From the NCBI RefSeq assembly GCF_003443535.1, contig NZ_CP031946.1:2542001-2606000 (forward strand): DNA of 64,000 bases, read 5' to 3'. Made by a program: the position numbers and the translations under genes. Position 1 is the stretch's first letter, and the number at the start of each line of letters is the position of its first letter. This document shows, piece by piece, positions 17,790 to 53,935 of this stretch. This stretch comes from Ruegeria sp. AD91A. Lineage in GTDB: Bacteria > Pseudomonadota > Alphaproteobacteria > Rhodobacterales > Rhodobacteraceae. A model generated the notes under the pieces. It did no database searches, was not told the origin of the DNA, and saw only the letters and a list, made by a program, of their open reading frames with translations.

Positions 17790-19409
17790 TCACAGACCAG
17801 CCGCCGACAAGAGCCGCACGCCTTCTTCGTAGTGTCGCCTGTTCTTGAAACAGCCGGGCCAGGCCCAGCGCTCGGCGGTAAAGCCCGGCTGCAATTCCAG
17901 AATCTGTCGGGCATGTCGACGCGCCAGGGAATGGTTCCCGGCGGCGGCGGACAGCATGCACAGCACGACCCTGGGACGAACGCGTCCGGGGTCAACCCGC
18001 AACACGTTATGGGCATGCTGCCACGCGGCCTTGTCCCCGGTTATCATCATTGCAATTGCCAGGTTTGCTTCGATCCAAATAGGGGGATGCGGCGTCAATG
18101 CCAGCGCTTTCTTGCAGACCGAAACGCCTTCTTCAGCCCTGTCATCATACACCAACAGGATGCCGTAATATCCCAACAATTCCGGGCTTCCGCTGAAACG
18201 TTCCACGACGGCAAGCATCAAGTTGCAAGCCTCTGACGTGTTGCCAGCAACACTGTGGGTGAAGGCATGGAGGGCCGAGCAGTACGGGTCCGTTGGGTAC
18301 AGATTGCACAGCTTCTTGCATTCGGCCTCTACCATTGCCAGCGCCTCGGTCGGGTTTGCATTCATGCCCAGGCGGATCATGTCCAAATGACAGAAACCGA
18401 TCGCGACACGTGCCGGAAGGTATCCCGGGTCAAACTCCAGACAGGCGCGATATTGACGGATGGCATCCTGCAACCCGTCTTCTGTTGCCTGACTTTCCAG
18501 AATGCGGGCCTTCTGGAACGCCGACCAAGCCTCGGTCGATGTGGCACGACCTGACCAGATTTCTGACCAATACCCGTCGCGCAATCGCAGTTGGAGCGCC
18601 TCGACGACCTTCATGGCGATTTCTTCGACCGCGTCGAATGTTTCCTTTGCGCGAAAGCGGAACCGTTGTGTCCACAGGCAAACCTGATCTGCGGTTGACG
18701 TCAGTTGAGCGGCCACCCGCAGGCCTTCTGCGCCGACCACACTGCCGCTGAGAACATAGCCTTCAACCGGGCCTTCCTGCCTGCGCGCGTCACGAAGCTC
18801 GATCACGTCGGACATTGTGCCCAGAAGAAACATGAGCTCGTCTCGTATGGAGGATGCAGCGATGCTGATATCCGGCGTTTCCCCGACAACTTCAAAAGGC
18901 TCTACAACAACCGCTGGACGCAAACGCCCCCAATGCACCGGCAAACCGCGGCCCGCCAGAACCGGACCGTCTGACTCTGTATCGATGTCCCAATAAGCCT
19001 GCCGCTCAACCGTCAGCCATGCCTCGAACTCGGGGTCGGCAACGTCCAACCCTTCCAGCAACTCAGCGCGGTCTGAACTGAGCTGCTCGTCAAACAGATC
19101 AACCTCGACTGCTGCCAGATTGATCGACACCGTTTCACGGGTTACTTCAAGAAAATCAAGTTTATGCTTGGAAAAGTGTTTGCTGAGAACACTAAGCTCT
19201 TTGCGCAACGACGCCGCGCCTTGTGCGGGCGAACTCTCGCTCCAGAGCTTGTCCTGCAACCAAGCCCTGCTGCGTATCGCGTTTTTCGACAGGAGCACCA
19301 AAGCAAGAAGAGCTTTCGCTTTGGTGCCCCGAGGCGTTACATCCTGACCGTCGTCGCAAATAATCTGAAACGGTCCGGTCAAAAAAACCTTGGTTCTTGC
19401 CTCAGTCAC
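17790..19409 (-). CDS. SARP-like transcriptional regulator with C-terminal TPR repeats
   Basis: 539 aa, GTG start. The first 110 residues resemble the winged-helix DNA-binding and BTAD start of SARP regulators: RGTKAKALLALVLLS, RAWLQDKLWSESSPAQGAASLRKEL in outline. The middle contains a YVLSGSVVGAEGLRVAAQL segment seen in adenylate-cyclase-like TPR regulators, and the C-terminal 200 residues are TPR-like helical pairs. It lies 32 nt downstream of the RiPP-precursor-like gene on the same strand, so probably shares its transcript. Likely a pathway-specific activator. Confidence 0.8.
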   Translation of the reverse strand: MTEARTKVFLTGPFQIICDDGQDVTPRGTKAKALLALVLLSKNAIRSRAWLQDKLWSESSPAQGAASLRKELSVLSKHFSKHKLDFLEVTRETVSINLAAVEVDLFDEQLSSDRAELLEGLDVADPEFEAWLTVERQAYWDIDTESDGPVLAGRGLPVHWGRLRPAVVVEPFEVVGETPDISIAASSIRDELMFLLGTMSDVIELRDARRQEGPVEGYVLSGSVVGAEGLRVAAQLTSTADQVCLWTQRFRFRAKETFDAVEEIAMKVVEALQLRLRDGYWSEIWSGRATSTEAWSAFQKARILESQATEDGLQDAIRQYRACLEFDPGYLPARVAIGFCHLDMIRLGMNANPTEALAMVEAECKKLCNLYPTDPYCSALHAFTHSVAGNTSEACNLMLAVVERFSGSPELLGYYGILLVYDDRAEEGVSVCKKALALTPHPPIWIEANLAIAMMITGDKAAWQHAHNVLRVDPGRVRPRVVLCMLSAAAGNHSLARRHARQILELQPGFTAERWAWPGCFKNRRHYEEGVRLLSAAGL

Positions 19410-19441
19410 TAACGGCCCTCAAAAGCGTTCGGGGGTTGTCG

Positions 19442-19753
19442 TTAACCGCTGCATCCAAAAATGACGATACCGCCCATCGCTTCATAGGCAAGTTTGCAGC
19501 ACCATGACTCGTGATCGGGGTTCGGATCCGGCTTTTTGTCACTCAGGTCCGGAACAACGATATGAACCAGATCCTTGGTGTCATAGACAAACCTGACCTC
19601 TGGGTTACCACTGTCCGCCAGGATTTCTTGAATTTTGCGTTCCGCCGCATCCTGATCATCTTGCGACCCAAGTGCACGACCGCGCGCGGCATTCAGAACT
19701 TCACACCCCAAGTCTTTCAATGAATAATTCGGGTTGATTATCAAACGAGCCAT
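19442..19753 (-). CDS. NHLP-type RiPP precursor peptide candidate
   Basis: 103 aa, preceded by an AAGGAG box at 19761-19766. The segment NPEVRFVYDTKDLVHIVVP (residues 50-68) matches the nitrile-hydratase-alpha-derived leader signature of NHLP precursors (V-x-V-x-D-T, then h-H-h-V-h-P). A hydrophilic linker follows, then LAYEAMGG ending at Gly94-Gly95, a classical double-Gly cleavage site. The predicted core is the last eight residues, IVIFGCSG, with one Cys and one Ser; a CC pair (85-86) lies just before the site. It is divergent from a YcaO gene with 68 bp between starts. The family call is by pattern; no search was run. Confidence 0.7.
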   Translation of the reverse strand: MARLIINPNYSLKDLGCEVLNAARGRALGSQDDQDAAERKIQEILADSGNPEVRFVYDTKDLVHIVVPDLSDKKPDPNPDHESWCCKLAYEAMGGIVIFGCSG

Positions 19754-19821
19754 GTAAAATCTCCTTCTCAAACAACAATGCCCATTTGTATACCCCGTTA
19801 CATGCTTATCCGGAAACGAAA

Positions 19822-20763
19822 ATGACCGACACGTTGATTGAACGCGCTGAAACTGCTCGGCTAATTTCCGAACCCTCGTTTGCCGAATTCCCCAAGGGTG
19901 CGCCAATCCACGCGGCTTTTCGCTTGATCGAGCTGCGCAACGGGACTCTGCCCCCCAAGGGCGGGATGGGCCATCGCGTGTCTTTCGGCACCGGCCGCAC
20001 ACCGGAGGAGGCGGCGCGGCTGGCCGGGTTTGAGGCGATTGAGCGCTATGCCTTGCAATACAGTACCGAAGCACCACAAACCTGCGAAAGCCTGATCGCG
20101 TCGGATGGTGCATCCCATGGGATGTCAACCGAAGCGCTTGCACTGGGTGTTCCGGGCAGCGACGGAACGGTCACTTCGAAAGGTGCCGCTGCCGGTCCAA
20201 CACACGAAGCCGCCGCCCTTTGGGCGGCGCTGGAGTGTTTGGAACACGCTCTTGGATCACACGGATTTGACCATCTGGTGCCGGAGACTGCACTGCCCCA
20301 CGATTTGACGCAGTGGCTGAATGTTCAACTGCGGCAACTGAGCATTCACACCCTCGAAGTCCCGGGCATCGGCCTTCTGCTGCGCGCGGTTTGCGCAGAC
20401 GCGGATGGCGGCAGGCCCACCTATGGATCGGCGCTTTCCGCAAATCTGGCGCAGGGCGTCTGGCACGCAGCATCCGAGGCGGTGGTGTCCTGGCGCAACA
20501 TGGTGATGCTTGATCATAACGGCGTGACGGATCACGGCATGGATGCCGAGCAGGTACGTTTATTCCGGCTTTATCGCGGCGCGCTAAATGACCGGCCCAC
20601 GGCTCCGACAGAGTTGTTCGACGTTCAGGCGTGGAAGACCCCGAACCCGTCGCTGACGACTGTATTAACGGCCGCAAGCTGTGCATTCGGTCGTCCGGTT
20701 GCGATTTTTGATATGACGGCACCTGAAATCCCGCTGCCAGTGGTCAAAGCCGTGCCAGTCTGA
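19822..20763 (+). CDS. YcaO-domain protein (RiPP backbone-modifying enzyme)
   Basis: About 313 aa. Three ATP/Mg-binding YcaO signatures are present in order: GTGRTPEEAARLAGFEAIERY (residues 56-76, in outline), GAAAGPTHEAAALWAALECLEHAL (121-144) and YGSALSANLAQGVWHAASEAV (201-221). It ends PLPVVKAVPV, the Pro-rich tail of azoline-forming YcaO proteins. YcaO enzymes phosphorylate peptide amides to make azolines, thioamides or amidines. No E1-like, ocin-ThiF or TfuA partner is seen. Start at 19822 (MTDTLIERA); 19786 is an in-frame alternative. It converges on the 453-aa gene with 7 nt between stops. Confidence 0.88.
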   Translation: MTDTLIERAETARLISEPSFAEFPKGAPIHAAFRLIELRNGTLPPKGGMGHRVSFGTGRTPEEAARLAGFEAIERYALQYSTEAPQTCESLIASDGASHGMSTEALALGVPGSDGTVTSKGAAAGPTHEAAALWAALECLEHALGSHGFDHLVPETALPHDLTQWLNVQLRQLSIHTLEVPGIGLLLRAVCADADGGRPTYGSALSANLAQGVWHAASEAVVSWRNMVMLDHNGVTDHGMDAEQVRLFRLYRGALNDRPTAPTELFDVQAWKTPNPSLTTVLTAASCAFGRPVAIFDMTAPEIPLPVVKAVPV

Positions 20764-20770
20764 GCACCTG

Positions 20771-22132
20771 TCAGGATCCGTCTTTACGAAAGCGCGTCGT
20801 GTTGCGGTTGGTCCCTGCTTCGCAACGATCCGCGAATTCCGAGAGCTGCCTGCAACGCTGGGTCTCGGGCAAGCCGCAGACAAACCGTCCCGGGTCAACA
20901 TGCGGGATTTCAACAAATTCGACACGGGTGATCACGCGTGGTTTGGCGGCAACTGTGATCATGGGTCCAACCTCGATCAGACTGGCGAGTGTATAGCCCG
21001 AGACCGGGCGCGCCGATGTGCCTGTTCCCAGCATAATATCGTCGAGAAACCGGGGATCATCGTCGGCAGGCCCGAAGTCAAGGCGCATGGGCATTCCAGG
21101 TGCGCCGCGCCGGAACCGGACCCAGTCCAGAGGCACCTTGTGCTCGCCCAAGAACAGTTCTGACGTTTGGAACGCCCGAAAATAAAGCCCAAGCGGATCA
21201 GAGAACGCCATTGCCTTGCCTGTAGGTGGCTTACCACCTTTTCCCACGGCCAGTTCGAGCGTATCGCTCGCCAAACAGACCCCGGCATGCCGGCAGTACA
21301 GATCTTTCCGGTTCGCGAAATCAAGCACTTCTTCGGGTCGGGCACGCCGCCTGCTATCGCCATTCTTAACGACGTAAGGGAACGAGAATAAGTGCATGGC
21401 CTGGATCAGATCGGTCAAACTGTTCGTATCCTTGGCCAGAAACAAAACATGCTGGATATTCAATGGATGTTCCGGCGGATGCGCGTAATCCGTACCCACC
21501 AGCCTTTTGTGAAAACGGGCCGCGCGCTCGGAAACATCCATCGAAGTCCATACCGACTGTGAGACTTCAAAAAGGTCCTTGCAGGAGTAGAAGCGCCCGG
21601 ACGCCGACGCGACCACCGACAGGAAGTGATCGAGATCGAAGACCGCCATGGTTCGCCACCATTCCATCAACTCGGTGGTGGCCACAAAACGCTTCGGGCG
21701 CATTCTGCCGCCGGCATCGGGTCGCATTACCAGCGCGTATTCAAGGTATTCGTTGTGCAGTTCAACCCTGCTGGACCAGCCTTGGTCTGACAGGCGAGCT
21801 GCCAGTTCATCGCCCAGACAATCCCGCGGCTCTCGTGGACTGGCGCGCCATCTGAACCGATTCGATGGCTGGCCCGCCTCGATGTCACGCGGATCCATGA
21901 CCAGAAACGGGCTGACGCCTTGCCTTTCAAAAGTGTTCTGAATGCTTGAATTCCACGCTGACAGGGCAGCGTCGTTCGCGCGTTGATCGGCAAGTCCAGG
22001 CGATTGGAATACAGACATCAACGAACACCGTTGGGCATCAGAAATACAAGAATGGAAAGTCAGAGGCCTATGCCCGCGAGGTTTCATTTCCAATGGGAGG
22101 GTCCCGGCGGGTGACGAATACGGGAGCATCAT
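20771..22132 (-). CDS. Unrecognised 453-aa protein in the YcaO/haloperoxidase locus
   Basis: I do not recognise this family. It is soluble, with no signal peptide or membrane segment. Visible pieces are FVATTELMEWWRTMAVFDLD, a HPPEHPLNIQHVLF segment, a Cys-containing DLYCRHAGVC, and a C-terminal region with VRFRRGAPGMPMRLDFG. The start is uncertain: 22132 (first ATG), 22087 and 22018 are in frame, and the conserved-looking part starts near MSVFQSPGLAD. It is 30 nt downstream of the haloperoxidase-fold gene and so likely cotranscribed. It could be a YcaO partner or leader-binding protein; that is speculation. Confidence 0.75.
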   Translation of the reverse strand: MMLPYSSPAGTLPLEMKPRGHRPLTFHSCISDAQRCSLMSVFQSPGLADQRANDAALSAWNSSIQNTFERQGVSPFLVMDPRDIEAGQPSNRFRWRASPREPRDCLGDELAARLSDQGWSSRVELHNEYLEYALVMRPDAGGRMRPKRFVATTELMEWWRTMAVFDLDHFLSVVASASGRFYSCKDLFEVSQSVWTSMDVSERAARFHKRLVGTDYAHPPEHPLNIQHVLFLAKDTNSLTDLIQAMHLFSFPYVVKNGDSRRRARPEEVLDFANRKDLYCRHAGVCLASDTLELAVGKGGKPPTGKAMAFSDPLGLYFRAFQTSELFLGEHKVPLDWVRFRRGAPGMPMRLDFGPADDDPRFLDDIMLGTGTSARPVSGYTLASLIEVGPMITVAAKPRVITRVEFVEIPHVDPGRFVCGLPETQRCRQLSEFADRCEAGTNRNTTRFRKDGS

Positions 22133-22162
22133 GAAAAACGACCTGTCATGGGGCGGGCACCT

Positions 22163-24145
22163 TCATCCTGCCCAGCCCGCCTGTTCAGGCAAATGACGGG
22201 TCCACCAAAGTTCAGGCGTACTGTTCGCGATATGAATTTCACTACCGGAGGAGCGACCGCTGACGATGCTGAGGCGATCTCCATCAAACGTTTCGAGCGA
22301 CATTTTCGCGGTGCCCCGGAAGTTCGCCATATGCTCGGCCAAAATGCCGACGGCAACGCGTTCACCCATTCGGACACTGTCGAAGTAGTCGCTGTAGAAA
22401 TGAACCCCTGCAAAACTGCGCCCGATCGCGATATTCGCAGCCAATTTGTTCAGTTCGCCATTCAGCGTCAGTTTCTCTGAGCTGTCGTCTAGTCGCTCAG
22501 AATCAATCAGTGTTTTGCCGCCTGCAGCCGGAACAAAAACGCGCGGCATACCCGCCTCGGCCAAAGACACCCGGGACCCGTCCAGCGCATGGGTCCGGAA
22601 AAACCCCTTGAGCAATGTGACGCACGCCCCGGCAACTGCCCCATGCGCCGCGCCGTAGGACGGGTGCATCGGTGAGCCTTCTGGATACGCAATTGGCAAC
22701 AGCAAGTTGCAATCGATTTTCGGCAGCCCATTATGAGACACCGCGTTGTGCGCGAACCGCCTGATGGACGGTGCAGCGGCAATGGCGTCCATCAGACTGA
22801 AGTCTTCGCTGGCGACGCTTTCCAATTTCTCCAGATGCGCTGCGGCAAACGGCTCGGCTGTTCCAAGCACCGCGCCATGACCATTCGCCACCAGAGTAGC
22901 AATATTGCCTAGCTTTTCAGGGCGGGCACGGTTGTGCACCTGAAAGGTCTGGCGTCGCACGGCCCGCAACGCCCTGGTCGCAGTTTCCGCCAGCATTGAC
23001 AGCACATGGGTCCCGCCCCAATCAGCCTTGGCACCATTCGCGCAGGAATGCCCGCCCTCAGGCAGACCGTCATCTGCGTCAACACCTCGGCCCAACATCA
23101 ACAGGCAAGCGTTGAAAAAAGCCTGATAGATCGTGTCAAAATGTACATAGGTTGCAAGGTCACGCGGCGTTTCAATGAATTTCGGGCCACTCGTCTCAAA
23201 GGCTTGTTCGCCGGCTGTGTCTGCCCCGTTCTGAACATCCAGCCATTCGGCCCAGTCCCGCAAATAATCCACGCCAACAGCCTGAGGAGCAACCCTTTGG
23301 TCAAGCCGCAATGCACCAAATGGCATTGCCCCTGATGCCGTTGTTTTTGCCAACCGCTGCCCTTGCGCATGCGCTTGGTCTGACGTCAGCGTGTCATGCC
23401 CCTGTAAAAGGAACTGCGACACGTATGGCCCTTCCAAGCAGCCTTGGCTCGAGCCGCGGAACAAGGTTCGGGAAGACAGACCCTGGCCATCTCGAACCCG
23501 GCGTGCCGAAGGTACTTTACCGATCTCGGCGCCGTTGGCGTCCTTTGGACAACCGTCTTCACGGAACCACTCCAACTTGCCAAGGGCGCCTACCACTTTG
23601 TCGGATACCTCGGCACCCTCTCGAATGGTTTCAAACGGCACATCCCGCAAATAGGCCATCGCATAGAGTTCAGCCATTTCTGCCGCAAGTTCATCTGATC
23701 CAAGCCTGGGTGCCGGAGCGATACCCAAAACGCCGGCATCCAAACCATTCAGACCCAACCGGTGACCCAGGATTGGCCCTTCCCACGCACGCCATCTAAA
23801 TTCACCACCCTCTGATGGCGTGGTGCGGAAGGGCCCGGAATAGGCTGGAGTATCAAACAGCGTCAGCCTGTTTCCATAATTGTCGGTGCAGGTAGGGTCA
23901 GCCACTTCTTCCAGAAATTCGGTATAAACCTGCGCGTCAACAATACCATTTTCGTCATGCCGCAAGCCCTTCGAAAAGCTCGTGGGCCAGATCCCGGCAA
24001 ACAAATCTGTTTCGCCGTTATGTTCTTCGGCCGCCCTCTCTCGGATTCCAACCGGCGCGTTCGAATGACACCGATCCCGGCCCAATCCTTGGATACGCGT
24101 CTCGAGGCCCTGCCAGGGTTCAGATGGAACAGTATGTTGCGGCAT
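22163..24145 (-). CDS. Vanadium-haloperoxidase-superfamily protein with altered active site
   Basis: 660 aa, the length of algal/cyanobacterial-type bromoperoxidases. The N-terminal FSKGLRHDENGIVD and the C-terminal acid-phosphatase/haloperoxidase helices mark the family. Aligning by motif, Arg408 (NRARPE), His501 (PSYGAAHG), Arg576 and His582 (GRSFAGVHF) are kept. The vanadate-binding Lys is Thr400, and the Ser-Gly of the PSxPSGH loop are Ala499-Ala500. This argues against ordinary haloperoxidase activity; a phosphatase-like, redox or structural role is possible. No signal peptide. First gene of a two-gene leftward unit. Confidence 0.8.
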   Translation of the reverse strand: MPQHTVPSEPWQGLETRIQGLGRDRCHSNAPVGIRERAAEEHNGETDLFAGIWPTSFSKGLRHDENGIVDAQVYTEFLEEVADPTCTDNYGNRLTLFDTPAYSGPFRTTPSEGGEFRWRAWEGPILGHRLGLNGLDAGVLGIAPAPRLGSDELAAEMAELYAMAYLRDVPFETIREGAEVSDKVVGALGKLEWFREDGCPKDANGAEIGKVPSARRVRDGQGLSSRTLFRGSSQGCLEGPYVSQFLLQGHDTLTSDQAHAQGQRLAKTTASGAMPFGALRLDQRVAPQAVGVDYLRDWAEWLDVQNGADTAGEQAFETSGPKFIETPRDLATYVHFDTIYQAFFNACLLMLGRGVDADDGLPEGGHSCANGAKADWGGTHVLSMLAETATRALRAVRRQTFQVHNRARPEKLGNIATLVANGHGAVLGTAEPFAAAHLEKLESVASEDFSLMDAIAAAPSIRRFAHNAVSHNGLPKIDCNLLLPIAYPEGSPMHPSYGAAHGAVAGACVTLLKGFFRTHALDGSRVSLAEAGMPRVFVPAAGGKTLIDSERLDDSSEKLTLNGELNKLAANIAIGRSFAGVHFYSDYFDSVRMGERVAVGILAEHMANFRGTAKMSLETFDGDRLSIVSGRSSGSEIHIANSTPELWWTRHLPEQAGWAG

Positions 24146-45032: not shown

Positions 45033-45719
45033 ATGAAAACTGTCGAACTCAAATCCTTGGTATTTCGGTGGCCCGGTCAACACGATCCGGTGCTCTCAGT
45101 CGATAACTTCGATCTTGAGGCCGGGGAAAGCGTGTTTATGAGAGGCCCCAGTGGCAGCGGAAAGACCACGTTGCTTTCGGCAATTGCCGGCGTGATCGAT
45201 GTACCGCAAAGCGCGGTTCACGTTGCAGGTACGGATGTCGGGGCTTTGGCCGGAGGTGATCGTGACCGTTTTCGCGTGGATCATTTGGGGATTGTTTTCC
45301 AAGTCTTTAATCTTTTGCCTTGGCTCAGTGCGCTTGAAAACACGTTGCTGCCTTGCCGATTTTCAGCGCACCGTCGCAATCGATCGGGGCCAGCCCCCAA
45401 GGCTACTGCAACACGGTTGCTAAGTGAGCTGGGTCTTGAGGATGCTGAGCTGATCAATCGACCTGCCAGCGCCCTGAGTGTTGGGCAGCAACAACGAGTT
45501 GCGGCGGCGCGGGCTTTGATAGGGGCGCCCGAAGTTGTGTTGGCGGATGAACCTACCTCGGCTTTGGATGAGGAAGCGAAAGACACGTTTGTCCAGCTGT
45601 TGCTGAAAGAATGCAATGCATCAGGGGCGAGTTTGCTATTTGTGAGCCATGATCGCAGCCTGGAAAAACACTTCGATCGGAGCGTCGACCTGCCAAAGCT
45701 GAACGCGGGGAAAACGTGA
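45033..45719 (+). CDS. ABC transporter ATPase (MacB/LolD-like)
   Basis: About 228 aa. Walker A GPSGSGKTTLL, the signature ALSVGQQQRVAAARAL (S-V-G-Q instead of SGGQ) and Walker B VVLADEPTSALDEE. It is of the LolD/MacB type that pairs with FtsX-like permeases. A TTG at 45000 overlapping the HlyD stop is an alternative start. The permease ATG overlaps its stop by one base. Confidence 0.9.
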   Translation: MKTVELKSLVFRWPGQHDPVLSVDNFDLEAGESVFMRGPSGSGKTTLLSAIAGVIDVPQSAVHVAGTDVGALAGGDRDRFRVDHLGIVFQVFNLLPWLSALENTLLPCRFSAHRRNRSGPAPKATATRLLSELGLEDAELINRPASALSVGQQQRVAAARALIGAPEVVLADEPTSALDEEAKDTFVQLLLKECNASGASLLFVSHDRSLEKHFDRSVDLPKLNAGKT

Positions 45720-47209
45720 TGTTCAACCTTTGTTTGAAAAGCCTTCTCAATCGCCGCTTTATCGCTACGTTGACTGTTCTTAGCATTGCCTTGAGCGTGG
45801 CTTTAATTGTTGGGGTTGAACGACTGCGAACAGAGGCACGAGCGGGTTTTTCCAATTCTGCATCAGGTATCGACCTGATCATTGCGGCACGCGGAAACGA
45901 TGTGCAGATCCTGATGGCAACGGTTTTTGGTGTCGGTACAACAGGCGCCGGTATCACCTGGGAAAGCTACGAGATGATCGAAGATCTGCCCCAGGTAAGC
46001 TGGACAGTGCCGATCATGATGGGTGACAACCATCGTGGATATCCAGTGATTGGCACGTCCAAGCATTACTTTGATCGTTTTCGTCACAGCGGCGGCCGAC
46101 ATCTGACCTTTTCTGAAGGACACTCTTTTTCGTCTGCAGATGGCGCAGTGATCGGTGCAGAAGTTGCACGGGTCTTTGAATATGGGCTCGGCACGGCGAT
46201 TGTGAATGCCCATGGTTCGGGCGAAGTTGCCTTTGATGTCCACGACGAAGCGCCTTTCACAGTGACCGGCGTGCTGGGGCATACCGGGACGGCCGTTGAC
46301 CGAATGGTTTTTGTCTCGCTCGAGGGTTTTGACGCCTTACACGAAGAACCTACATCAGAGGGTGCGGACCCGTTTGTTTTGGTCGATGCACCTGAAGTCG
46401 CCGAAGAACACGAAGACCATGACACCGAGCATTCCCATAATGAAGACCACGCAGCCAGCGAATTTGCGAACAGGCATGCGGATCACGGCGAAGAACACGA
46501 AGACCATAGCCATGTGGAGTTAGACGAGCCTGACGAGCACGAAGAAGGGCATCAGGAATATGACGACAGTCATGCCCACGAAAGCGACCATGAAGACGAG
46601 GCGGAAGCTGTCAGGACTTCTGGCGGGCACGATCACGGTGGCCATGATCATGAACCGGAGGCCATCAACGCGATTTTTGCCGGGCTTGAGGAGAAGACAG
46701 CGGTGCTTTCAGTTCAACGGCAACTGGCAGACCATCGCGACGAGGCACTGACTGCTGTTCTTCCTAATGTTGCGCTGTTGCAGCTTTGGTCGATTACCAG
46801 TACGGCCGAGACCGCGCTGCGTCTGATGGCAGGCGCTGTGGCAGTGGCTGGAATGATCGGCATGGTGGTCATGTTGTCTGCTTCGCTCGACAACCGGCGG
46901 CGTGAATTTGCGATCCTTCGATCCGTGGGCGCAACACCAGCCGGCGTCTTTTCCCTGATCTTGCTTGAAGCCGTTTTATTGTTGTCGGCCGGCATCGTGC
47001 TTGGAGTAATCGCGCTCAGCGCTCTCACGCTCGTGATAGATCCGATTCTTGCCGCAAATTTTGGGCTCCGCATCGGTGTTGACCTGCCGAGTTTTCGCGA
47101 GGTTCTTCTCATAGCCCTCGTTTTCTGCTCTGGTCTTCTTGCCAGTATTGTACCTGCGTTAAGGGTGTACCGTATGACGCTATCAGACGGACTGTCGGTG
47201 CGGCTTTGA
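45719..47209 (+). CDS. FtsX/MacB-like ABC permease with His/Asp/Glu-rich loop
   Basis: 496 aa. One N-terminal membrane helix (FIATLTVLSIALSVALIVGV), a large periplasmic MacB-type domain, then three C-terminal helices with the FtsX signature REFAILRSVGATPAGVFSLI. Between residues about 227 and 317 lies an acidic insert with 19 histidines (46395-46665), in repeats such as EEHEDHDTEH and GGHDHGGHDHE. Such an insert would bind transition metals, zinc most simply, in the periplasm. The transporter is therefore likely linked to metal handling or metal sensing. Confidence 0.87.
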   Translation: MFNLCLKSLLNRRFIATLTVLSIALSVALIVGVERLRTEARAGFSNSASGIDLIIAARGNDVQILMATVFGVGTTGAGITWESYEMIEDLPQVSWTVPIMMGDNHRGYPVIGTSKHYFDRFRHSGGRHLTFSEGHSFSSADGAVIGAEVARVFEYGLGTAIVNAHGSGEVAFDVHDEAPFTVTGVLGHTGTAVDRMVFVSLEGFDALHEEPTSEGADPFVLVDAPEVAEEHEDHDTEHSHNEDHAASEFANRHADHGEEHEDHSHVELDEPDEHEEGHQEYDDSHAHESDHEDEAEAVRTSGGHDHGGHDHEPEAINAIFAGLEEKTAVLSVQRQLADHRDEALTAVLPNVALLQLWSITSTAETALRLMAGAVAVAGMIGMVVMLSASLDNRRREFAILRSVGATPAGVFSLILLEAVLLLSAGIVLGVIALSALTLVIDPILAANFGLRIGVDLPSFREVLLIALVFCSGLLASIVPALRVYRMTLSDGLSVRL

Positions 47210-52855: not shown

Positions 52856-53935
52856 ATGGAAAAGACTCAGGACGCGAAGATTGTCGATCTGGCAATACGA
52901 TTGCTCTTTCTCGGACTGTTCCTCTACAGCGCCTTGATCATGGTCGCCCCGCTTGCAAGCGTGGTTATCTGGGCAACGATCCTTTGCGTTGCGCTGTACC
53001 CGGCATTTGATTGGCTGCAATCCAAGTTGGGAGGGCGGAAGAAGCTTGCGGCGGCGATCTTGGTTTTGGTGGGTCTTGTTTTGACCTTGGGGCCGGTTGC
53101 TACGGCGATATCCGGTGCTGCAGAACTTGGGTCTGAATTCGCGGAACAAGCAGACAAGGGTGAGTTGAAAGTCCCGCCTGCGCCCGAGGGCCTTAAGGAA
53201 CTGCCATTGGTTGGAGACAAAATTTCCGATGTTTGGGGTATGTTCGAGCGGAATCTGGACGGCGCGCTTGCAAAATACGGCGCGCAAATCCTTGAGATCA
53301 CAAAATCGCTCTTCGGAAAGGTGTTGGGCATCGGAATCGGGCTTCTTGGCTTGGCCCTGTCCGTATTGATTATGGGGGCGTTGTTCAGCCCCGGGCCAAA
53401 TTTGGTCCAAGGTCTCCAACGCTTTGCAAACCGTGTTTTCGCACCGCGCGGCGGTGAATTCGTAACACTGGCAGGTGCAACAATTCGGAACGTGACAAAA
53501 GGCGTGATCGGCGTAGCAGCCATTCAGGCGGTCTTCGTTTGGATACTGCTGGCTTTGTTCGGAATTTCTTCGGCCGCCACGCTGGCATTTATCTGCCTGA
53601 TACTCTCGATCATCCAAATCGGGCCCGGATTGGTTCTTATACCGGTTATTATCTACGCATGGAGTTCCATGTCCGGCGGAACTGCTTTGATATTCACCAT
53701 ATTGGCCGTGCCCGTCACAATAATGGACAGCTTCCTAAGACCCGTGTTCATCTCAAAAGGCCTTGAGACTCCCATGTTGGTCATCCTCATCGGTGTTCTC
53801 GGAGGTATGATGGCGTACGGTTTGATCGGCGTCTTTATGGGGCCGGTACTCTTTGCTGTGTTCTATGAGCTGTTCAAGGTTTGGATTGATACCTCGCCCG
53901 AAGCCGAGGGTGCTTCTGAAGGTGCGGCGAAATGA
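52856..53935 (+). CDS. AI-2E family transporter (PerM/DUF20-like)
   Basis: 359 aa with about eight membrane helices arranged as in the AI-2 exporter/PerM family: paired helices at the N-terminus (residues about 12-75), a soluble segment (ELGSEFAEQADKGELKVPPA), and the C-terminal pore block LILSIIQIGPGLVLIPVI, LETPMLVILIGVLGGMMAYG and FMGPVLFAVFYELF. Family members include TqsA (AI-2 export) and sodium/proton antiporters. It overlaps the HlyD gene by 4 nt, which is unusual and suggests a shared job in efflux. Confidence 0.85.
   Translation: MEKTQDAKIVDLAIRLLFLGLFLYSALIMVAPLASVVIWATILCVALYPAFDWLQSKLGGRKKLAAAILVLVGLVLTLGPVATAISGAAELGSEFAEQADKGELKVPPAPEGLKELPLVGDKISDVWGMFERNLDGALAKYGAQILEITKSLFGKVLGIGIGLLGLALSVLIMGALFSPGPNLVQGLQRFANRVFAPRGGEFVTLAGATIRNVTKGVIGVAAIQAVFVWILLALFGISSAATLAFICLILSIIQIGPGLVLIPVIIYAWSSMSGGTALIFTILAVPVTIMDSFLRPVFISKGLETPMLVILIGVLGGMMAYGLIGVFMGPVLFAVFYELFKVWIDTSPEAEGASEGAAK

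Follow-up and report, generated by a model that had tools for sequence, protein, structure and literature searches.

Is the small protein encoded beside a stand-alone YcaO enzyme the substrate of that enzyme, and what do the further genes around the two contribute? This question is raised by a five-gene locus of Ruegeria sp. AD91A, which was examined in a window of 64,000 nucleotides on a 3.66-Mb contig (NZ_CP031946.1); all coordinates given here are positions in this window. An original prediction, made from the letters of the DNA, had described five genes of a candidate locus for a ribosomally synthesized and post-translationally modified peptide (RiPP), and all five open reading frames (ORFs) are present at the positions given there, coding and conserved. 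The conserved unit of the locus is a three-gene core consisting of ycaO, the small-protein gene and a regulator gene, and the genes for a haloperoxidase-fold protein and a 453-aa protein form an add-on pair. The features are as follows (NHLP, nitrile hydratase leader peptide).

17790..19409, minus strand: SARP/HilA-like regulator with TPR repeats, 539 aa; TPR_14 above the Pfam cut-off; kept in 14/14 loci
19442..19753, minus strand: small NHLP-like protein, 103 aa, candidate YcaO substrate (precursor); family of 15 members; NHLP profile-profile score 34.3 against a permutation maximum of 19.3
19445..19489, minus strand: conserved C-terminal tail, residues 89-103, with E91, G94 and C101, candidate core; lowest mean entropy among five stretches compared
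19754..19821, no strand: divergent intergenic region of 68 bp, candidate shared promoter/operator; spacing kept across loci
19822..20763, plus strand: stand-alone YcaO, 313 aa; PF02624 above cut-off; profile matches to TruD, LynD, MusD and MJ1094
20771..22132, minus strand: 453-aa protein of the PF26676 family; 48 homologues labelled PF26676; true start probably Met39, at about 22018
22163..24145, minus strand: haloperoxidase-fold protein, 660 aa, Thr400 at the position of the vanadate-binding Lys; homology to solved bromoperoxidases and alignment of copies

The haloperoxidase-fold and 453-aa genes both lie on the minus strand with 30 bp between them; ycaO, on the plus strand, runs towards them. 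The small-protein gene diverges from ycaO across the 68 bp, followed at a distance of 32 bp by the regulator gene on the same minus strand. Among 13 loci compared, ten have a gap of exactly 68 bp between ycaO and the small-protein gene; the remaining three have 67, 86 and 96 bp.

Conservation of the three-gene core

Within the genus, the five genes occur in identical order in all eight Ruegeria loci examined, i.e., the window and seven further loci (L012 and L013 are one and the same locus). The small protein matches 8 of 54 genus genomes, the own genome included, and the profile of the 453-aa protein matches exactly those eight; among 293 relatives, the YcaO profile finds the same eight and a single genome from another genus. 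All seven other Ruegeria loci resemble the window in the DNA of the left flank (about 9.9-15.8 kb), within reach of the fetched stretches. Ratios of nonsynonymous to synonymous substitutions (dN/dS) against the window copies are 0.019-0.351 wherever dS is measurable; saturation of dS affected 4/7 small-gene comparisons and one comparison each for the haloperoxidase-fold and the regulator gene.

Outside the genus the core was followed into Silicimonas (L018), where ycaO, small protein and regulator are kept and the contig starts just past ycaO, so that the place of the other two genes is beyond view. A search of 394 family genomes with the YcaO profile gave seven matches in six genera at E 1e-20, and five distant loci (L038-L042) were read in their gene context. 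Each of these holds, in the YcaO locus, a related regulator and a small protein which starts with MAR[LF] and carries a Cys one or two residues from its end; in L042 two unknown genes stand between the regulator gene and ycaO. BLAST recovers the small protein in three of the five (L038, 2e-14; L039, 1e-9; L042, 1.5e-6), and those of L040 and L041 were recognised by place and pattern, which is a weaker basis.

The trio of ycaO, small-protein gene and SARP/TPR-like regulator gene is thus found together in 14/14 loci (eight Ruegeria loci, L018 and L038-L042), which were found via the small protein or YcaO and are not an independent sample. That homologues of the small protein have YcaO neighbours was borne out in all 14 loci read in context; the context of three aligned members (P0008, P0011 and P0012) is not part of this count. 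The core proteins are also co-inherited: their pairwise distances in nine lineages correlate with r of 0.83-0.91, values reached in 0, 1 and 0 of 5000 label permutations, respectively, with host relatedness included in the correlation and not subtracted. The add-on pair does not travel with them, as the 453-aa protein is present in 0/5 distant loci and a relative of the haloperoxidase-fold protein in only one, the very divergent protein of L041 (25% identity, E 2e-16). In place of the pair, L039 and L040 carry BioF/serine palmitoyltransferase-like proteins, which score below the curated cut-offs. The view of a compact YcaO/NHLP-like, RiPP-type locus with little machinery that recurs in roseobacters is supported by these comparisons.

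The BioF-like gene regions near the trio are at L039:597-3617 and L040:6012-7298, the former together with 253-aa and 259-aa proteins without family match. Compared with L019 and L020, the window shows 96-99% identity in small protein and regulator and 89-91% in YcaO, but only 79-85% in the 453-aa and haloperoxidase-fold proteins; recombination inside the locus is possible.

The small protein and the stand-alone YcaO

The 103-aa protein ends in EAMGGIVIFGCSG and belongs to a family of 15 aligned members with 22-80% identity to the window copy. Invariant in 15/15 are M1, A2, R3, G16, D58, P68, E91, G94 and C101. Among five stretches compared, residues 89-103 have the lowest mean entropy and hence the highest conservation, and the C-terminal pattern E..G......C is found in every member, with a Gly directly before the Cys in 14/15. 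The hydrophobic run before this Cys resembles the bottromycin core. From this pattern, the Gly-Cys in the tail is the likely candidate for the YcaO target.

The prediction had called this protein an NHLP precursor. As a family assignment this failed, as none of the 15 members matches the NHLP model TIGR03793 at E 10, and none matches Nif11 or other leader models. A kinship, however, was detected when profiles were compared. In HHalign, with ten NHLP leaders from one genome as comparison set (eight above the NCBI cut-off), the small-protein family scored 30.9 with the full alignment (probability 65, E 6.3e-5 for one comparison) and 34.3 on match columns (probability 81, E 1.2e-5 for one comparison). 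In the controls, 300 column permutations reached a maximum of 19.3, the reversed alignment 9.4, and five other protein alignments together with one extended set 11.3-13.2; rotation controls (20.6-34.4) were uninformative as they left most of the motif intact. Nif11 scored 8.7 against the small-protein family and 29.6 against NHLP. Much of the NHLP signal comes from the stretch 'yD....nIVIPdl'. These profile comparisons support the small protein as remote NHLP kin, not as a member. Elsewhere in the own genome, outside the window, two sub-cut-off matches of the NHLP model lie in one 209-aa frame (G000:C1:1571938-1572333), which is possibly the alpha subunit of a nitrile hydratase.

The 313-aa protein passes the Pfam YcaO model PF02624 with 32.7 bits (cut-off 25.7), and as a profile it matches TruD, LynD, MusD and MJ1094. 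Its nucleotide motifs E..ER and S.G.AAG...E..E align with TruD/LynD, with the Glu and Arg positions invariant in a 30-row alignment. Homologues numbered 29 at E 0.01 among the 8000 best word-sharing candidates, and the named rows are from Rhodobacteraceae or from an unclassified Pseudomonadota metagenome-assembled genome. No E1 part was recognised in the 313-aa protein. The C-terminus IPLPVVKAVPV contains prolines, and such C-terminal prolines are described as typical of azoline-forming YcaO enzymes in PMC8442711. The own genome holds a second YcaO outside the window (402 aa; L084:5466-11485, corresponding to G000:C1:1459000-1471000), whose best NCBIfam match is SagD-type and below cut-off; it adjoins an 840-aa cyclase/TPR-like protein and proteins of 174 aa and 566 aa without family match.

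The add-on pair, the regulator and the surroundings

The assignment of the 660-aa protein to the haloperoxidase superfamily holds as homology, with E 7.7e-89 to the solved vanadium bromoperoxidase 5LPC and likeness over more than 500 residues to vanadium-dependent bromoperoxidases (PDB 5LPC, 1QHB and others), but the vanadate Lys is lost and the protein is absent from the widely conserved core. In 5LPC the vanadate-binding lysine lies in the stretch QKF. Unlike this enzyme, all eight Ruegeria copies read QT[FL] with Thr400 at this place, whereas the Lys is present in three of three other bacterial homologues (Pseudanabaena QKF, Polymorphobacter QKW and Microvirga QKY). The Arg and the two His of the vanadate site we take to correspond to R576, H501 and H582; H501 and R576 are invariant in 8/8 Ruegeria copies and H582 in 7/8, with Asn in L015. 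The His of PMHPSYG is H in 4/8 copies, Q in two, and D and T once each. The Ruegeria haliotis copy (L015:5586-7583) combines the Asn for H582 with a Thr for the His of PMHPSYG. In the relative beside the three-gene core of L041 (L041:9025-10776) the vanadate-site motifs are lost.

The gene is nevertheless under purifying selection (dN/dS 0.09-0.20 where measurable), and to judge from these alignments the protein is kept, though probably not as an ordinary haloperoxidase. Since the vanadate-binding Lys is replaced by Thr400, peptide halogenation by this protein appears doubtful.

For the 453-aa protein, which had been called unrecognised, no match was indeed found in Pfam or NCBIfam. Among the 8000 best word-sharing candidates, 48 homologues were obtained, all labelled PF26676 and including proteins of Bradyrhizobium, Sinorhizobium, Rhizobium and Paracoccus. 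Many of them are 414-416 aa long, residues 1-38 of the 453-aa protein are of low confidence in the structural model, and the true start is probably Met39 at about 22018. The model as a whole is confident (pLDDT 87.6) and found no match in the PDB. In a plasmid collection two PF26676 records were found, on pSK02 of Rhizobium leguminosarum and on a Streptomyces plasmid, where the next gene overlaps and matches Dyp_perox_C. Because PF26676 genes thus adjoin two unrelated peroxidase-type folds, their arrangement suggests that PF26676 is a peroxidase partner. The overlapping pairs are at L029:10022-12488 and L030:12001-14528; the pair on the Streptomyces plasmid is followed by genes of radical SAM and ferritin-like type.

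As to the SARP-like label of the regulator, TPR_14 is above the Pfam cut-off, and the matches to HilA/EilA (E 3.8e-5) and AfsR (E 0.0013) are both below curated cut-offs.

Further machinery was looked for with Pfam in 20 flanking ORFs, a selection of which the ten nearer ones cover 8.5-29.5 kb. The prediction had noted neither a C39 exporter nor an E1-like partner nearby, and none of the ten nearer ORFs scanned matches the exporter, C39 peptidase, E1-like or TfuA families. Among all 20, no C39 peptidase or TfuA was recognised; likewise no E1-like or ocin-ThiF-like partner was matched among the cassette proteins and these 20 ORFs, although a divergent partner could escape such a scan. A MacB/FtsX-type permease (45716-47209) about 21 kb off and an AI-2E family transporter (52856-53935) about 29 kb off were also matched, but nothing links them to the locus. 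The nearest scanned genes are of ordinary metabolism on both sides, with a Rieske dioxygenase, a sulfotransferase-like protein and a carboxymuconolactone decarboxylase on one flank and GFA, cupredoxin and ornithine cyclodeaminase on the other.

A proposed minimal RiPP-type system and its rivals

We tentatively favour, at somewhat less than an even chance, a minimal RiPP-type system, related to proteusins, whose C-terminal core is short and conserved. In this scheme the conserved tail of the 103-aa protein, E-x-x-G-x-x-[VT]-x-x-[GR]-C, would be offered to the stand-alone YcaO by the NHLP-like body of that protein, and the enzyme would activate the Gly100-Cys101 backbone amide at the expense of ATP. 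By analogy with one bottromycin YcaO, a thiazoline would most likely be formed there without an E1-like partner. The regulator encoded behind the small protein may control the locus, and branch-specific enzymes may tailor or release the tail. In Ruegeria this role would fall to the PF26676 protein and its partner, the haloperoxidase-fold protein whose vanadate site is altered; BioF-like enzymes would take it in two distant loci. Observed directly are the gene content, its conservation and co-inheritance, the motifs and the loss of the lysine; the substrate, the thiazoline, tailoring, release and regulation are inferred from them.

Parts of this scheme have precedents. The bottromycin YcaO forms a thiazoline without partner protein (PMC8442711), and, like the arrangement proposed here, it acts partner-free on a Cys near the core C-terminus (PMC8442711, PMC7136475). 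Bottromycin differs in having an N-terminal core, a follower peptide and two YcaO genes, and the likeness is not based on YcaO kinship. The YcaO MprC acts on NHLP leaders (PMC12455567), and MprE-MprC with the oxidase MprD resembles the Ruegeria locus in joining an NHLP-type substrate with a YcaO that acts on a Cys of the C-terminal core. In the mpr system, however, MprC has an RRE (RiPP recognition element) domain and there are the oxidase MprD and many precursors (MprE1-MprE10), whereas the Ruegeria locus has a 313-aa YcaO without recognised RRE, a remote NHLP kinship and a conserved tail. An NHLP-type substrate also meets a halogenase in SrpI, a flavin-dependent brominase with Trp as target and proteusin leaders (PMC10858898); in contrast, the haloperoxidase-fold protein has an altered site, and the tail has no Trp. 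A 2025 review on peptide halogenation stresses flavin-dependent halogenases and mentions vanadium haloperoxidases as general biocatalysts (PMC12615548). A genome-mining paper places Nif11-like precursors of Ruegeria in TfuA-linked clusters (PMC8120280); the locus is unlike these, as its small protein is not Nif11-like and no TfuA was recognised nearby. Our literature search, with most subscription journals outside its scope, returned no paper that joins YcaO with a haloperoxidase (vanadium, RiPP context), none on vanadium haloperoxidase gene clusters of roseobacters, and none that links nitrile hydratase leader peptides to YcaO in Rhodobacter.

Several observations weigh against the favoured explanation. 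The GG site noted in the prediction did not hold among the homologues, as its second residue is G in only 8/15 members, F in three, and S, W, E and A once each; a GG-type cleavage site is not conserved. With no peptidase or near exporter recognised either, the release of the tail is unexplained. The NHLP scores fall in subsets, to 26.7 for the Ruegeria rows, 28.1 for the distant rows and 11.9-24.5 for six single sequences. An AlphaFold model of the small protein (pLDDT 74.6, tail below 50) gave no NHLP or nitrile hydratase structure among its PDB matches and was uninformative on the fold. As for the YcaO, of the three ATP motifs that had been claimed two align with TruD/LynD, but the third region (EAVVSWRNM) does so only across a 5-residue gap, and no RRE was recognised in the 313 residues. 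Finally, many RiPP cores are diversified but this tail is conserved, and its conservation would fit a role outside natural products as well.

Such a role could lie in intracellular signalling or scaffolding, the modified small protein being neither cut nor exported, its tail acting in the cell, for instance as ligand of the TPR regulator, and the add-on genes being outputs. The position of the regulator gene behind the small-protein gene in 14/14 loci, the fixed tail with the invariant N-terminal MAR, and the lack of a recognised peptidase or near exporter in the ORFs scanned all agree with it. We still regard it as unlikely, since the add-on genes next to the core encode enzymes that look biosynthetic, and the binding of a ligand by the regulator is a proposal only. 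Moreover, natural-product clusters, too, commonly contain SARP-type regulators with TPR repeats. Quite unlikely is a YcaO chemistry other than azoline formation, with a thioamide or amidine at the tail. YcaO enzymes are known to make thioamides, with TfuA, and amidines (PMC8442711), but no TfuA was matched in the cassette proteins or the flanking ORFs scanned, and the invariant Cys, mostly preceded by Gly, suits heterocyclisation.

The picture first drawn from the locus, a GG-cleaved proteusin halogenated by a vanadium haloperoxidase, can point to GG in 8/15 members, the NHLP kinship, the strong haloperoxidase homology and the action of a flavin brominase on a proteusin (PMC10858898). It has become improbable: the second G is missing in 7/15 members, the vanadate Lys is Thr in 8/8 copies with other active-site residues varying, no C39 peptidase was recognised among the 20 flanking ORFs scanned, and the core would comprise only about eight residues. 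That the small protein is no YcaO substrate at all, and both partners serve another pathway with the small protein as, e.g., carrier or inhibitor, seems to us very doubtful. Its modification is inferred rather than directly observed, and most YcaO proteins are without known function according to PMC8442711; yet the divergent pairing of ycaO and the small gene is kept across distant loci with correlated distances, and the C-terminal Cys is invariant.

Returning to the minimal RiPP-type system, we also considered a bolder form of it, which we hold to be rather unlikely as a whole: a new YcaO system of Rhodobacteraceae, in which the conserved C-terminal Gly-Cys tail of an NHLP-like carrier would be modified by a minimal YcaO without partner protein and then recognised by the TPR regulator, while the tailoring modules would be exchangeable. 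Among these modules would be a haloperoxidase-fold enzyme repurposed after loss of the vanadate lysine and working with PF26676, which is also found beside DyP-type heme peroxidases.

If true, the locus would encode a peptide-modifying system of the YcaO/NHLP type that is very small and acts on a fixed C-terminal target, and the question of the substrate could therefore be tested directly by co-expressing two proteins and analysing them by mass spectrometry. Peptide tailoring would then also involve a haloperoxidase-fold protein that lacks the canonical vanadate lysine, together with PF26676, an uncharacterised family whose genes occur next to those of peroxidases, and with a metal-binding residue lost in this haloperoxidase-like member the chemistry may be new.

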